From positions 1 to 44,354 of the forward strand of contig JACVJC010000003.1 in assembly GCA_015711795.1 (NCBI GenBank): a DNA stretch of 44,354 nucleotides, read 5' to 3'. The notes beneath the pieces are model-generated. The model did no database searches. It was given only the letters and a program-made list of their open reading frames with translations, and was not told the DNA's origin. The stretch's first letter is position 1; every line of letters begins with the position of its first letter. Shown in pieces: positions 15,874 through 21,863 of this stretch. The position numbers were made by a program, and so were the translations under genes. Source of the DNA: Candidatus Geothermocultor quzhuomuensis (GTDB lineage Bacteria; Actinomycetota; Aquicultoria; Geothermocultorales; Geothermocultoraceae).

Positions 15874-16344
15874 CTAATATTTCTCCCAATCGATTCTCTT
15901 TCTTAAAGCAAGGAGTAAAAGATAACCAAAACCATAAACAGCGACTGCTTCACCTAAGAAAATTGAAACTGCTGTCAACCAATAAGGTAGTTTAAAGAAA
16001 AGATGAAGGTAAGAAGAAACACCAAAAGCATTGACCAAAACTGGGGAAAGGAGAGCAAGAAAAGTATTTTTTCGAAGAAGATATGTCCCTAAAGCCGCTA
16101 TCAAAGTGAAAAGGGAACCAAAAATAATATCAGGGAGGCCTAAACCACCAAAAATATTAGCTAAGAGACAACCTAGATACAATCCAGGTATTGCAGCTGG
16201 AGTCAATATCGGCAAAACAGTTAAAGCTTCACTGACCCTGCATTGAATCGGTCCATAACTAATGGGAGCTAAAAAATAAGTTGTTCCAGCGTAAAGAGCA
16301 GCAATTAAACTAGATAAAGCTAAAAATCTTATTCTTATTTTCAA
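15874..16344 (-). CDS. queT: QueT-family queuosine-precursor ECF transporter subunit
   Basis: 156 aa with five to six hydrophobic helices and almost no soluble part. GPIQCRVSEALTVLPILTPAAIPGL and LANIFGGLGLPDIIFGSLFTLIAAL are the family landmarks. QueT proteins are substrate-binding S components of energy-coupling-factor importers, thought to take up queuosine precursors. The ATPase and T components are not in the window, as usual when one EcfAA'T is shared. The ribosome site AAGGAGAA lies before the ATG. The 107-bp leader contains two hairpins (see 16368-16404). Related S components for other vitamins are the alternative, but the sequence pattern fits QueT best. Confidence 0.82.
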   Translation of the reverse strand: MKIRIRFLALSSLIAALYAGTTYFLAPISYGPIQCRVSEALTVLPILTPAAIPGLYLGCLLANIFGGLGLPDIIFGSLFTLIAALGTYLLRKNTFLALLSPVLVNAFGVSSYLHLFFKLPYWLTAVSIFLGEAVAVYGFGYLLLLALRKRIDWEKY

Positions 16345-17430: not shown

Positions 17431-18510
17431 TTACTTGTTTCTGACTTCATAAGCTCTTCTTTTAATTTCTTCAATTTGGGAAAGGCTAAGAGCACGGTCA
17501 AAGCTTCTTAAACCAGCCAGCTCAAAACCATGTTTACTGGCTAATTTCATCATTTCATTCACTCTCTCGAGGCTAATTTCCTTCCCAAGAGTGTAGTTTT
17601 CATATCTCTCTTCCAGAGCAAGAATCATCGTCTCAGCGATACAAGCAAGAACTAACCCTTTAGGAAGTCCTATGTCAAAATCAAAATGAACTTTACCAGG
17701 TGCCTTGACTACCCCTCCATCAATTACTAAAACATCAGGGCGAACTTTCACTACCGCTTCAGCGACATCTCTAGGCCGAGCAACATCACAAATGACCGCT
17801 CCCGACTTAATATCTTTTGGATTGATAATTGCTTCTATTGCTCCCGTAACAGTCACAACTACATCTGCTTCTTTAATTAAAGAAATATTGGTCGAGCTAT
17901 AAACCTCCCCTGAACTTCGGCTCTCTACTTTTTCTCTTACCCTTTCCAAATCACTTTTATTCCGCCCAATTAAAATTACCCTTTTGAAGTAAGGAGTAAG
18001 ATAAAAAGAGCAAACCGAGCCAATAGAGCCAGTTGCTCCTACCACCGCTAATGTTGAATTTTTCAAATTAATCTCCATTAACTCAGCTGCTTTTAAAGTT
18101 CCTTCAATAGCTGTTCCAATAGTATAAGTGTTCCCAGTCGTTATTGGAATGTCAACTACTTTCGCTAATTTTCTCCCTCCATTCCCAACAATAGCAGTAT
18201 GAGCTCCTAAACCAACAATTTTAGCTCCCTCTCTTTTAGCTACTTTGCACCCCTTGACTAACTTTTTAATAACATATTCCTCTTCAAGCTCATAAAATTG
18301 CCAGGTAAGAAGAGGAATAGCGATAAAAAAACCATCAGCCGTAACACCTGTCTTTGATGTAAGCCCTGTTATTTGGGATAAAACAAAAGGACGCCTTCTC
18401 TTTAAGACAGAAGCAACAAGCTTGGAAGAGACTTTCTTAGCAATCTTATATTTCTTGGCTACATCCTCAATGCTCATAGGATGAACAAAAAAAGCAAATA
18501 CCCCTTTCAT
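17431..18510 (-). CDS. Acyl-ACP reductase-like NAD(P)-dependent enzyme
   Basis: 359 aa. Comparison from memory with cyanobacterial long-chain acyl-ACP reductase (AAR) shows matches along the whole length. The N-terminal FFVHPMSIEDVAKKY parallels IGHLTSLEQA of AAR. ITGLTSKTGVTADGFFI follows. TTGNTYTIG at 124-132 parallels TTGNTHTAY. The Rossmann motif is VVGATGSIGSVC (157-168). Near the C-terminus LACIAETMILALEE places C290 where AAR has the cysteine that forms the acyl thioester (ACFAEAM). AAR reduces fatty acyl-ACP to aldehydes. Here the substrate is unknown and no aldehyde-deformylating oxygenase is nearby. Automatic annotation may call this a shikimate or amino-acid dehydrogenase. Ribosome site GGAGGAG; it follows the preceding gene by 20 bp in a three-gene operon. 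Confidence 0.8.
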   Translation of the reverse strand: MKGVFAFFVHPMSIEDVAKKYKIAKKVSSKLVASVLKRRRPFVLSQITGLTSKTGVTADGFFIAIPLLTWQFYELEEEYVIKKLVKGCKVAKREGAKIVGLGAHTAIVGNGGRKLAKVVDIPITTGNTYTIGTAIEGTLKAAELMEINLKNSTLAVVGATGSIGSVCSFYLTPYFKRVILIGRNKSDLERVREKVESRSSGEVYSSTNISLIKEADVVVTVTGAIEAIINPKDIKSGAVICDVARPRDVAEAVVKVRPDVLVIDGGVVKAPGKVHFDFDIGLPKGLVLACIAETMILALEERYENYTLGKEISLERVNEMMKLASKHGFELAGLRSFDRALSLSQIEEIKRRAYEVRNK

Positions 18511-18530
18511 TTACTCCTCCAACAAGCCTC

Positions 18531-19433
18531 TCAATTAAGCTTTTCAATTCGGGGCTTAAAGTCGAGTTTACTTAATAAATTAAGATAATCTCCAGGTTTT
18601 GTCTCCTCCCAACTTTTTCCCAAAAGACTTAAAAAGAGAGCTTCTAAAACATTAGTCCCAAAAGAGCGTCCTTCAAATTCAGGAGTAGTTGTAATAAGAT
18701 ACTCCACTCCTCTATTTCTTAAATCTTCTACATCCTTTGGGGTAACAGTATTGGTAATCACCCACTTATCCTTCATTTCTTGAGGCATATATTTTCGGAT
18801 AAAAAGAAAATCGCCCGCAATAACTTGGGCTTCTCGATAATACTTGGCATATTTCTCCTCCGGTTCTTTTTCTTGAGATTTACCAGTGGGATAAAGCATT
18901 TTAAAAGGCATTTTGGTAACAATGGGGAGAAGAAGTCGGGCAAAAATATAAAAGGTTTGAAAAGACCTTATTGAAATGGGAATTTTAAGCCCGAAAATTA
19001 AATCACCATAAATGATTTGACAACCCTCCTCGTGAAAAGCTTCAGCCATTCCAAATCTATCAACGGCACTGACCATCAAGACCTTTTTCCCTTTTAAACT
19101 AAAACCTTCCTTTACTAAATATCTAATTACTTCGCGCTCAAGGGTATTTTTTAAGCCACTACCATCAACAACAGGAGTTTTTCTAACTGCTTCCTTAAGC
19201 TTTTTAGCATCTCTAATCATATATTTTTTATTTCCGGCCCAAAGATACAAATCAATACCACCTAAGCCAATAGCTGCCACTTTTCCATCAAGCTCTCTTA
19301 AAAGAGAAATTGCTTTCTTGAAGTCTCCATCAGTACCAACCCGGGAAATCTTAAATTTCTCTCCCAAAAGCTCAACTTCAACGCTGTGATCTCTTTTTGA
19401 AGAGCCTAAACTTACGCTGACGACTTCTTTCAA
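18531..19433 (-). CDS. Conserved protein of the 'quinate 5-dehydrogenase' label
   Basis: 300 aa, function not established. From memory, close relatives in Clostridia are labelled quinate 5-dehydrogenase, but I see no experiment-level basis for that. Visible features: AAIGLGGIDLYLW (about 54-66) and KGKKVLMVSAVDRFGMAEAF (about 117-136), which looks like a nucleotide-binding beta-alpha unit. A hydrophobic stretch IYGDLIFGLKIPISIRSFQT runs into FYIFARLLLPIV (about 145-175) and could contact membrane. A C-terminal VITNTVTPKDVEDLRNRGV follows. The start is a TTG (19433, or 19436) 6 bp after a strong GGGAGG, inside the end of the upstream regulator gene, so the two overlap by 56 bases. It sits between an XRE regulator and the acyl-ACP-reductase-like gene, which suggests one shared pathway. 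Confidence 0.75.
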   Translation of the reverse strand: MKEVVSVSLGSSKRDHSVEVELLGEKFKISRVGTDGDFKKAISLLRELDGKVAAIGLGGIDLYLWAGNKKYMIRDAKKLKEAVRKTPVVDGSGLKNTLEREVIRYLVKEGFSLKGKKVLMVSAVDRFGMAEAFHEEGCQIIYGDLIFGLKIPISIRSFQTFYIFARLLLPIVTKMPFKMLYPTGKSQEKEPEEKYAKYYREAQVIAGDFLFIRKYMPQEMKDKWVITNTVTPKDVEDLRNRGVEYLITTTPEFEGRSFGTNVLEALFLSLLGKSWEETKPGDYLNLLSKLDFKPRIEKLN

Positions 19434-19980
19434 CAAAAACCTCCCATCTCTTTTTCCTTGGTAAACTTTCTAATAAAAGCTGACCAAGCTTATTAAGGTC
19501 AACATCTATACTTTCTTTAATAGGAGATCTCCCTATCTTTACACCAATGACCTTATCACCAAAAATCTTTTCAGCTATAGAAATCCTCCAATCAGAACCG
19601 AGAAAAACAATTACATCAAAATCCTTTAAAAAGGCAATAAGCTCCAAAATCTCATTAAAGAGTTCTACCCCACTTCGGCTTTCCACGAATTGATAACGCT
19701 CTTCTTCACCTAAGAGATAAACAAAGTCAACTCCTTTCTCTAAAGCTAACTTTTCTATCTCTTCCTTATTGGCAACGGGAAAACCAACTAAAGCAACTCT
19801 CTTTCCTTTCCTTATTTCACCTAAGCCTTCAAGATGAGAAATAAAAGAGCGATCTACCCCAATTTTCTTAGCCACTTCGGACTGGGTCGAACCTTTAGCC
19901 CTTAACTGAAGAATCTTATTGACTAAGTTAACTAACTTGTCTCGACTTATTACCTTATCTCCAACTCGAATTAATTCCAT
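19378..19980 (-). CDS. XRE-type HTH regulator with C-terminal sensor-like domain
   Basis: 200 aa. An N-terminal helix-turn-helix of the Cro/C1 type is clear: QSEVAKKIGVDRSFISHLEG (about 33-52). The rest (GKRVALVGFPVANKEEIEKL..., DVIVFLGSDWRISIAEKIFG, KVIGVKIGRSPIKESIDVD) looks like an alpha/beta domain that could bind a ligand. It is the first gene of the operon with the 'quinate dehydrogenase'-like and acyl-ACP-reductase-like genes. A longer GTG start at 20019 is possible, but that codon lies inside the promoter spacer (TTGACT-16-TAAAAT, 20037-20010). The ATG at 19980 is therefore preferred, although its ribosome site is weak. A dyad just after the -10 suggests autoregulation. Confidence 0.82.
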   Translation of the reverse strand: MELIRVGDKVISRDKLVNLVNKILQLRAKGSTQSEVAKKIGVDRSFISHLEGLGEIRKGKRVALVGFPVANKEEIEKLALEKGVDFVYLLGEEERYQFVESRSGVELFNEILELIAFLKDFDVIVFLGSDWRISIAEKIFGDKVIGVKIGRSPIKESIDVDLNKLGQLLLESLPRKKRWEVFVERSRQRKFRLFKKRSQR

Positions 19981-19990
19981 CCCATGTTTC

Positions 19991-20010
19991 TGTGCACATT
20001 TTTGTGAACA
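19991..20010. promoter_or_regulatory. Candidate operator dyad for the XRE regulator
   Basis: TGTGCAC-N6-GTGAACA, seven-base arms matching at six positions, lies immediately downstream of the -10 of the XRE operon and covers its predicted transcription start. That position suits repression by the first gene's own product. It is about 50 bp from the opposed promoter of the KaiC-like operon. Confidence 0.5.
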
Positions 20011-20037
20011 TTTTACCACTTCAAATTAAAAAGTCAA
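20010..20037 (-). promoter_or_regulatory. Promoter of the XRE / acyl-reductase-like operon
   Basis: Minus strand TTGACT (20037-20032), 16-bp spacer, TAAAAT (20015-20010). It matches the vegetative consensus at nine or ten of twelve positions. The predicted start falls inside the 19991-20010 dyad. Confidence 0.65.
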
Positions 20038-20060: not shown

Positions 20061-20089
20061 TTGCAAAAGTTACTTAGCTAGATTAAAAT
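20061..20089 (+). promoter_or_regulatory. Promoter of the HTH-KaiC-membrane protein operon
   Basis: TTGCAA (20061-20066), 17-bp spacer, TAAAAT (20084-20089). The start site near 20096 leaves a very short leader that consists of little more than the ribosome site AAAGGAGGG (20096-20103 region) before ATG 20107. It is divergent from the XRE promoter, whose -35 lies only 24 bp away. Confidence 0.6.
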
Positions 20090-20106
20090 TGAAAAAAGGA
20101 GGGAAT

Positions 20107-20454
20107 ATGGATATTGACTATCTTTCCCCTGAAATGGAGAGCTTTGTTGAAAAATATGTTGACTCCTTCCTTGCTTGGGATTTAATTGTTTTTTTTCATC
20201 AAAATCCTCAAGCAATTGATTCTTCTTATAACTTGTCCCTTCGCTTAGGAAGGAAAGAAAGGGATGTCAAAGAAGCCTTAAAGAAATTAGTTGAAAAAGG
20301 GGTGTTAAAAGAAAAGGGGGAAGAAAACCCATTATATATTTATTCTCCTCTAGATGAAGTAAGAGAGAAAGTAGACCAGTTTGTTCAGTCCTTATCTTCA
20401 AGAACCTTTCGCTTGCAGGTTCTTTCCTTAGTTTTGAAAAAAGGGAGGAGATAA
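20107..20454 (+). CDS. Winged-helix DNA-binding protein
   Basis: 115 aa. A winged helix-turn-helix is predicted from AWDLIVFFHQNP, SYNLSLRLGRKERDVKEALK (about 43-62, helices 2 and 3) and LVEKGVLKEKGEENPLYIYS (wing). A C-terminal helix (VREKVDQFVQSLSS) may dimerise. The start ATG at 20107 sits 4 bp after a strong AAAGGAGGG. An in-frame ATG at 20089 overlaps the -10 of the promoter and is rejected. The stop codon is immediately followed by the GTG start of the KaiC-like gene, so the two are translated together. It may be the DNA-binding output of that ATPase, by analogy with other HTH-KaiC pairs. This is inference from context. Confidence 0.82.
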   Translation: MDIDYLSPEMESFVEKYVDSFLAWDLIVFFHQNPQAIDSSYNLSLRLGRKERDVKEALKKLVEKGVLKEKGEENPLYIYSPLDEVREKVDQFVQSLSSRTFRLQVLSLVLKKGRR

Positions 20455-21222
20455 GTGGAGAGAGTAAAGACGGGAATAACCTCTCTTGATGAAATGCTTT
20501 CAGGTGGCCTTTTAAAAGGAACGGTTTGCTTAGTAAAAGGAGCTCCTGGAAGCGGTAAGACCTCAATTGGACTGGAATTTATTTCAAGGGGGATAGAGGA
20601 ATTTTCTGAAAACGGGCTTATTGTCACCTTTGAACATTTCCCTCAACAAATTTATCGAGATGCTTTATCCTTAGGCTTTGACTTAAAGACATATGAGGAA
20701 GAAAAAAAGCTTAAAATCTTATTTACCTCCCCTTCTCTTTTTATCCAATTAATAGAAGAAGCTGATGGAGAATTTGATGAAATAGTTTCTAAATATGAGA
20801 TAAAAAGGTGCTTAATCGACTCCATTAACCATTTAGAAACACTATCACCTGACCCCAAAATCTTAAGGGAAAAAATTTATTCCTTTGTAAACGCCATAAA
20901 AAGACATGAAATCACCTCAATGGTAACCCAAGAAGACCTATCCTTAACTGGTGAACTTAAAGCTATTGAGTATGGAATCTCATACATTGCCGATACCTTA
21001 ATCCAGCTTCGCTTTGTTGAGATTGAATCCTCTTTAGAAAAAGCCATCTTAATTGTTAAACAAAGAGCTTCAGGTCATGACAAAAAAATAAGAAAATTTG
21101 AGATCACAAAAGAAGGAGTAAAGATAGAAAAAGAATTTAAAGGGCTGGAAGGGATCCTTTCAGGTAGCCCAACTAAAAGTATCCTAGAGAAATTTACAGA
21201 GATAAAAGATAAAATTATTTAA
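20455..21222 (+). CDS. Single-domain KaiC/Rad55-like ATPase
   Basis: 255 aa with one RecA-fold KaiC domain, not the two of cyanobacterial KaiC. It begins with the family start VKTGITSLDEMLSGGLLKGT. Walker A is GAPGSGKT (30-37) and the Walker B-like strand is RCLIDSINHLE (about 122-132). The catalytic pair usually written EE after the third strand is E60-H61 here (VTFEHFP), so hydrolysis may be slow or altered. IKQRASGHDKKIRKFEITKEG near the C-terminus is the typical end of this family (VKxRxSxHxxxxRxFEIT). The GTG start is preceded by GGGAGGAG and directly abuts the HTH gene. Such ATPases often act as signalling switches. The target here is unknown. Confidence 0.87.
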   Translation: MERVKTGITSLDEMLSGGLLKGTVCLVKGAPGSGKTSIGLEFISRGIEEFSENGLIVTFEHFPQQIYRDALSLGFDLKTYEEEKKLKILFTSPSLFIQLIEEADGEFDEIVSKYEIKRCLIDSINHLETLSPDPKILREKIYSFVNAIKRHEITSMVTQEDLSLTGELKAIEYGISYIADTLIQLRFVEIESSLEKAILIVKQRASGHDKKIRKFEITKEGVKIEKEFKGLEGILSGSPTKSILEKFTEIKDKII

Positions 21223-21233
21223 GGAAAAACCTA

Positions 21234-21863
21234 ATGGAGCAATGGCTCTATTGGACAAGAATTTTTTGTATTTTACTTTCTTTAGCTTTAACTGGCTTAA
21301 TGCTAGAGCGATATTTGGTGAAAAGAGAGTACCACCTTCTTATTTGGATGGTGGCTTGGCTAACGGTTGCGGGAAGAGTTACTTGGGAAACCTTTCTCCC
21401 TAAAAAACTTGGTTTCAACTTTATTAATGACTTCCTAACCATCACTCACGATTTACTTTGGTTCATTGGTTTAGTTATCCTTTTAGAAGGAACATCCTTG
21501 CTGAAATTTATCTTTCCCTTCACCTACTTAGCTCTTCACTCCTTGCTCAGTGCTATCTTTTACTTTGGGCTAAAAAGTAACATTCTTGGAGCAATCGAAT
21601 CCTCTATCTTTACCCATCCAATTCTTCTCTTTATTTTGTCCTGGTATTTTTATCTGTGTTTCAAGGCTCTTAAAAGTCTAGGAGCTAAAATAATTAGCTT
21701 TTCTTACCTTCTCTGGGCTCTCGATTACATAATTTTTGGTGTCCCTTATTTCGGAATGGGAATGCAATTAGCAGGAGTTTTAGGTTGGAGCATTGGCCTT
21801 ATCTTTAGAATCTCAATTTTCATTGGCTTTCTTATCTTAATAAGGGAAGAACAACCTTCTTAG
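21234..21863 (+). CDS. Seven-helix membrane protein, possible sensor
   Basis: 209 aa, nearly all hydrophobic, with about seven membrane helices (for example ILLSLALTGLMLERYLV, LLIWMVAWLTVAG, LLWFIGLVILLEG, FTYLALHSLLSAIFYFG and a last helix IFIGFLILIREE). No catalytic domain follows. The pattern resembles free-standing versions of the N-terminal membrane sensor modules of histidine kinases, but I cannot name a family. Ribosome site AAGGA 6 bp before ATG 21234, 11 bp after the KaiC-like gene, so it is the third gene of that operon. Its stop overlaps the convergent coaX stop by 4 bp. The neighbour suggests it senses a membrane signal and passes it to the ATPase; this is inference. Confidence 0.72.
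   Translation: MEQWLYWTRIFCILLSLALTGLMLERYLVKREYHLLIWMVAWLTVAGRVTWETFLPKKLGFNFINDFLTITHDLLWFIGLVILLEGTSLLKFIFPFTYLALHSLLSAIFYFGLKSNILGAIESSIFTHPILLFILSWYFYLCFKALKSLGAKIISFSYLLWALDYIIFGVPYFGMGMQLAGVLGWSIGLIFRISIFIGFLILIREEQPS

Follow-up and report, generated by a model that had tools for sequence, protein, structure and literature searches.

Contig JACVJC010000003.1 of Candidatus Geothermocultor quzhuomuensis (GenBank assembly GCA_015711795.1; Actinomycetota, Aquicultoria), of which we analyzed positions 1 to 44,354 (the window, 44,354 nucleotides long), carries on its minus strand a short operon for a predicted XRE-type repressor (XRE), a conserved central protein (CEN), and a reductase akin to the acyl-acyl carrier protein (ACP) reductases of cyanobacteria (AAR). 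All three open reading frames (ORFs) are present, and an earlier reading made from the sequence alone had described them as overlapping or closely spaced genes of one operon, as they are. XRE (19378..19980; 200 aa) combines an N-terminal helix-turn-helix with a C-terminal alpha/beta domain, and its 3' end overlaps CEN (18531..19436; 301 aa, an undescribed protein of two alpha/beta domains) by ~59 bases. CEN begins at TTG 19436 or TTG 19433, with GGGAGG ahead of both, and a gap of 20 bases leads to AAR (17431..18510; 359 aa), which is preceded by a strong Shine-Dalgarno sequence. A palindrome, TGTTCACAAAAATGTGCACA (19991-20010), covers the stretch just ahead of the XRE start codon. It is the predicted operator, of the form TGTTCACA-AAAA-TGTGCACA (19991..20010, no strand assigned), recognized by a pattern scan and by its conservation upstream of XRE genes; directly upstream of it lies a promoter-like site on the minus strand, TTGACT-16-TAAAAT with an extended TG (20010..20037; consensus scan 10/12). 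The most likely start of XRE is ATG 19980, because the upstream GTG 20019 lies beyond the operator and within the promoter-like site.

The motifs that the sequence-only reading had picked out in AAR, namely TTGNT, the VVGATGSIG NADP loop, and a cysteine (C290, in ACIAETM) at the position of the AAR cysteine, are all borne out. GATGSIG (residues 158-164) is invariant or nearly so among locus homologues, and in a sequence alignment C290 falls on the catalytic cysteine of the cyanobacterial enzyme (ACFAEAM; Cys294 equivalent), which is kept in 29/30 locus homologues. The same reading had called the protein a homologue of cyanobacterial AAR, which is right as to family and cysteine, but the best characterized match is PigE. 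AAR scores 201 bits against the N-terminal part of the NCBIfam PigE model (the reductase part alone, under the 850-bit cut-off of the full model; the aminotransferase is on another contig), compared with 106.6 bits against TIGR04058, the model for cyanobacterial long-chain acyl-ACP reductase, where the cut-off is 449.7. A phmmer search of the PDB likewise returns 4ppm (E 6e-36), titled Aminotransferase in that database and cited as a PigE structure in PMC9594044, and cyanobacterial AAR 6jzq (E 1e-19). By these comparisons, the nearest characterized relative of AAR is the thioester-reductase half of PigE, ahead of cyanobacterial AAR, and the protein is probably an acyl-thioester reductase that makes an aldehyde-type intermediate with NADPH. 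It shares with the cyanobacterial enzyme the fold (by homology), the NADP loop, and the Cys294 equivalent, but the partner there is an aldehyde-deformylating oxygenase and here an aminotransferase. We set aside alkane synthesis of the cyanobacterial type in view of the aminotransferase partner; no search was made for the oxygenase itself.

PigE joins a thioester-reductase half, in which Cys296 is the equivalent of AAR Cys294, to an aminotransferase half, as described from bioinformatics and in vitro work (PMC8341465). PtTamH has both activities in reverse order and converts acyl groups to amines, so that fatty amines are made (PMC9594044), and a Thermincola reductase-transaminase fusion turns aliphatic aldehydes into amines (PMC10829540). 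The locus resembles these systems (PigE, PtTamH, and KecF, of prodigiosin, tambjamine, and koreenceine) in pairing an AAR-family reductase that has the catalytic cysteine with a class III aminotransferase, a combination suited to the sequence acyl thioester to aldehyde to amine. It differs in that the two are separate genes, fused in some relatives only, in that CEN and XRE stand alongside, and in a housekeeping context outside any secondary-metabolite cluster. The aminotransferase of the window's genome is unlinked to the operon (contig C10, 35122-36420) and matches the aminotransferase part of PigE at 505 bits and Aminotran_3 at E 2e-112. On plasmids, AAR relatives are mostly annotated as class III aminotransferase proteins, which is consistent with reductase-aminotransferase fusions.

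Gene content across genomes ties these proteins together. We compared 250 genomes of the phylum of Thermoanaerobacter wiegelii and 150 genomes of the window's phylum by Fisher test, calling full-length AAR at E≤1e-60, PatA-like aminotransferase at E≤1e-78, and, where fusions were compared, standalone AAR at E≤1e-130. In the larger sample, 131/132 genomes with AAR also have CEN (p 7e-25), which occurs in 186/250 genomes overall; in the smaller one, both genes occur in 18 genomes, either one alone in 2 genomes each, and neither in 128 (p 4e-19). Among the fusion-free genomes of the 250, AAR goes with a PatA-like class III aminotransferase (100/121 vs 2/91, p 2e-36). Standalone AAR is found in 2/38 genomes that have a transaminase-reductase fusion vs 113/212 others, and CEN is kept in 35/38 of the fusion genomes.

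A survey of gene neighborhoods agrees with the sequence-only expectation that the three genes keep company, since Actinomycetota and Clostridia arrange the locus as coaX (or dus), XRE, CEN, AAR, greA, lysS. Elsewhere the aminotransferase enters the locus. The order is CEN, class III aminotransferase, START, AAR in family f2 and in genomes G003 and G102; aminotransferase, START, AAR, CEN in Armatimonadota and Eremiobacterota; and of the aminotransferase-AAR-CEN type, without START, in Chloroflexota. The aminotransferase of these operons matches putrescine aminotransferase models best (~500 bits) and scores ~403 bits against the aminotransferase part of PigE. In some Clostridia, a transaminase-reductase fusion of ~900 aa adjoins CEN. 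In Desulfotomaculaceae, XRE and AAR remain together and CEN is relocated; there (five loci: L128, L129, L132, L137, L155), its downstream neighbors are a 117-aa small protein, an APC-type transporter, and then cell-wall-related genes. At the Aquicultor loci examined, a cytidine diphosphate (CDP)-alcohol phosphatidyltransferase gene comes after that of the aminotransferase, which usually has START with it, and in a Subteraquimicrobium relative the phosphatidyltransferase and aminotransferase genes overlap.

The middle gene proved the hardest to place. Its common label, 'quinate dehydrogenase', which the sequence-only reading had already doubted, is unsupported, because CEN has no Pfam or PDB relative, bears only a partial fold likeness to known proteins, and has SAVDRFG at the expected dinucleotide loop position. 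No credible Pfam family was found for any of 61 members, nor was a Shikimate_DH match among them, and searches returned no NCBIfam relative and no PDB relative by sequence. The family is nonetheless well defined, with 43 positions invariant across phyla in the 61 sequences. Candidate stretches from a species-level genome collection hold at least 583 relatives; none was found on plasmids or phages. An AlphaFold2 model (pLDDT 93, pTM 0.90) shows the two alpha/beta domains, and Foldseek reports partial likeness to sugar-binding proteins, glutamate dehydrogenase, malic enzyme, and dipicolinate synthase A (TM 0.28-0.41). The lowest E value, 2e-6 to a sugar-binding protein, comes with a TM of only 0.35, and the highest TM, ~0.4, is to dehydrogenases; no fold was assigned. 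What CEN may share with shikimate/quinate 5-dehydrogenase is a weak resemblance in fold to amino-acid-dehydrogenase-type enzymes (E ~1e-4, TM in the same range), but there is no sequence similarity and no GxGxxG, and the conserved residues are others. Profile comparison of CEN with AAR and with XRE found no homology. At one locus (L072 8980-10928, in G018), two tandem CEN genes lie between XRE and AAR.

The upstream gene had been proposed as the regulator of the operon, and a conserved operator at the promoter argues for this. XRE falls just below the gathering score of HTH_3 (21.6 bits; gathering score 23); its AlphaFold2 model has a pLDDT of 80 (31 homologues aligned), and a fold search with the model gave no match under E 1e-3. 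The pattern TGTNCACA-N3/4-TGTGNACA, within 2 mismatches, lies upstream of 66/71 XRE genes. The window's operator has 0 mismatches to it, where chance would give 0.82 sites at ≤3 mismatches, and the 1.76-Mb genome contains one site at ≤1 mismatch, at the XRE-CEN-AAR promoter; a reversed control pattern, at ≤1 mismatch, has no site in that whole genome. At the same stringency, five other genomes (G185, G234, G337, G412, G319) each carry one site at the XRE-CEN locus and a second at an unlinked fusion gene, and another (G302) has one at the fusion gene and one further site. In a Desulfallas genome (G173), a site lies ~90 bases ahead of the PatA-like aminotransferase gene. In local scans, a site at ≤2 mismatches stands near the gene start of 8/18 fusion genes, a count that leaves out sites deeper inside over-extended ORFs, vs 10/1333 other genes; CEN, START, and most standalone aminotransferase genes had none ahead of them in these scans. 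Regulation by XRE of its own operon through the conserved promoter palindrome is thus supported at the level of sequence, and its regulon appears small, comprising its own operon plus, in other genomes, the unlinked fusion gene. At L190 (5315-7522), a transaminase-reductase fusion directly follows an aldehyde:ferredoxin oxidoreductase-like gene, with an XRE operator between the two.

Our preferred reading, to which we give about an even chance, makes the operon the regulated center of a pathway to fatty amines, most likely one that supplies N-glyceroyl-alkylamine membrane lipids. Acyl-thioester reduction followed by transamination would yield an alkylamine, and a fatty amine, not an aldehyde, alcohol, or alkane, is predicted because kinship to PigE and TamH, gene context, co-occurrence, and the shared operator all tie AAR to a class III aminotransferase. 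The sequence-only reading had proposed an acyl-derived aldehyde or alcohol; an aldehyde-type intermediate survives in principle, but through the aminotransferase link the predicted product has become the amine. In the proposed route, AAR would take an acyl group from ACP or coenzyme A onto Cys290 and reduce it with NADPH to a fatty aldehyde, a step suggested by homology and the conserved residues, and the PatA/PigE-like class III aminotransferase, unlinked here, would convert the aldehyde to an alkylamine. CEN would act in the same pathway, and our guess is that it might couple D-glycerate to the amine, perhaps with a phosphoglyceroyl compound as donor. Addition of the phosphatidyl group would then fall to a CDP-alcohol phosphatidyltransferase. 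XRE, bound to the promoter palindrome, would repress its own operon and elsewhere also the reductase-transaminase fusion gene, presumably in answer to a lipid or acyl signal.

The lipid end of this route draws on several lines of evidence. Thermus, Meiothermus, and Deinococcus have N-glyceroyl alkylamine phosphoglycolipids as their major phospholipids (PMC3398001, PMC3035268). The same lipids have been reported in Moorella thermoacetica (PMC13274423, which also cites a 2025 paper whose title speaks of the dominance of such lipids in several Bacillota), and the XRE-CEN-AAR module and the aminotransferase both occur in M. sulfitireducens. Their synthesis needs an alkylamine, and in 14 control genomes searched for the AAR family at E≤1e-12, the three positives were Synechococcus and the two Deinococcota, Thermus composti and Deinobacterium chartae; the family was not found in the other 11, all noncyanobacterial. 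It also needs an enzyme that attaches the phosphatidyl group, and the CDP-alcohol phosphatidyltransferase that adjoins the aminotransferase in relatives is of the type required. In Deinococcus, family deino9.00587, a candidate counterpart of CEN with a 'quinate dehydrogenase'-type label, occurs in 33/33 genomes, lacks a CDD family, and is considered likely important (PMC9425974). The enzymes that form the third chain in T. thermophilus have not been identified, according to PMC9636437, so there is no reference pathway with which to compare. The fuller proposal, that Deinococcota, Clostridia, Aquicultoria, and other phyla have in common a route to N-glyceroyl-alkylamine lipids made up of XRE-CEN-AAR and the unlinked PatA-like aminotransferase, in which formation of the N-glyceroyl alkylamine is the task of CEN as a new enzyme family, is one that we put forward tentatively and consider rather doubtful as a whole.

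Several observations weigh against this interpretation. T. wiegelii carries the module and is listed with iso-diabolic acid only, where Moorella is listed with alkylamines (PMC13274423), and for bacteria that carry this exact operon the lipid product is a predicted one. The presence of CEN in Deinococcota is putative, being read from the annotation label of deino9.00587. The co-occurrence p values ignore phylogeny, and the counts were transcribed from search tables. No strong AAR-family match of any kind occurs in 28/186 CEN genomes, and two relatives (G034, G060) keep CEN and have neither AAR nor the aminotransferase. No operator was found at most standalone aminotransferase genes, that of the window's genome included; nor does a CDP-alcohol phosphatidyltransferase adjoin the aminotransferase there, and the one that does so in relatives could be housekeeping PgsA. 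Further, the AAR beside CEN has lost its cysteine in some Clostridia, and catalysis at the locus is therefore not universal. The cysteine is gone in 13/100 aligned locus reductases (W, S, A, G, or D instead), mostly together with the glycine loop, and these apparent pseudo-enzymes stand beside CEN or at the CEN locus (L235-L240, L242-L246, L248). The reductase tree implies at least two losses, the exact number being unsure because of long branches, and the cysteine is kept in every fusion on it. A fusion is also present in several genomes whose locus reductase lost the cysteine, which suggests that the fusion took over catalysis and that the old locus reductase was retained for another role. 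In Caloramator and a related bin (L094, L098, L119), a protein of 245-265 aa takes the place of AAR after CEN; it may be a degenerate AAR, and one of the three gives a weak match to the AAR profile (19 bits).

Such losses fit a view in which CEN and XRE form a core of unrelated function, to which AAR is only accessory, as a sensor or scaffold whose binding role the dead reductases reveal. The persistence of CEN and XRE without AAR fits this too, as does the 262-aa Caloramator protein with its residual AAR similarity, but fusions that never lose the cysteine, and that are predicted to be catalytic under the same operator, do not, and a full-length AAR is almost never without CEN; we consider this account improbable. 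An unlikely but somewhat stronger contender is that a fatty aldehyde is made or consumed for some other lipid use (alcohol, ether, or vinyl ether) with no amination, the aminotransferase link being coincidental. The window's operon has no aminotransferase, its standalone aminotransferase gene has no operator, and Bacillota do make vinyl-ether and hydroxy iso-diabolic lipids (PMC13274423). Coincidence sits poorly, however, with AAR fused or adjacent to an aminotransferase in several lineages, with the strength of their co-occurrence, and with the operator at fusion genes.

PigE and TamH are the closest characterized proteins, and predicted prodiginine-like clusters occur in three thermophile genomes that have fusions (PMC10829540), so the amine might instead end up in an alkaloid or antibiotic and form its tail, as in prodigiosin, tambjamine, or koreenceine. 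Against this, coaX, dus, greA, and lysS, the neighbors at the locus, are housekeeping genes, no polyketide synthase or nonribosomal peptide synthetase genes were seen, and CEN is widespread and very strongly conserved; we rate a secondary-metabolite module as quite improbable. Finally, the three genes might share no function and merely retain an ancient arrangement next to greA-lysS, in a neighborhood that is generally conserved in these lineages. This is very improbable, as the Desulfotomaculaceae have CEN elsewhere with AAR still in the genome, and fusions at other loci share the operator; the unlinked operator sites largely refute it.

Around the operon, the window also holds a QueT family transporter between hisG and greA (15874-16344) and a divergent set (20089-21863) that encodes a helix-turn-helix protein, a KaiC-like ATPase, and a membrane protein without a Pfam match, its family unknown.

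The module supplies named candidate genes for the amine chain of the signature lipids of Deinococcus and Thermus, whose enzymes are not identified according to PMC9636437. With it come a predicted regulator whose operator is defined and a protein family, CEN, that has hundreds of members and has been without a description. These candidates could be tested in a tractable host such as Thermus thermophilus.

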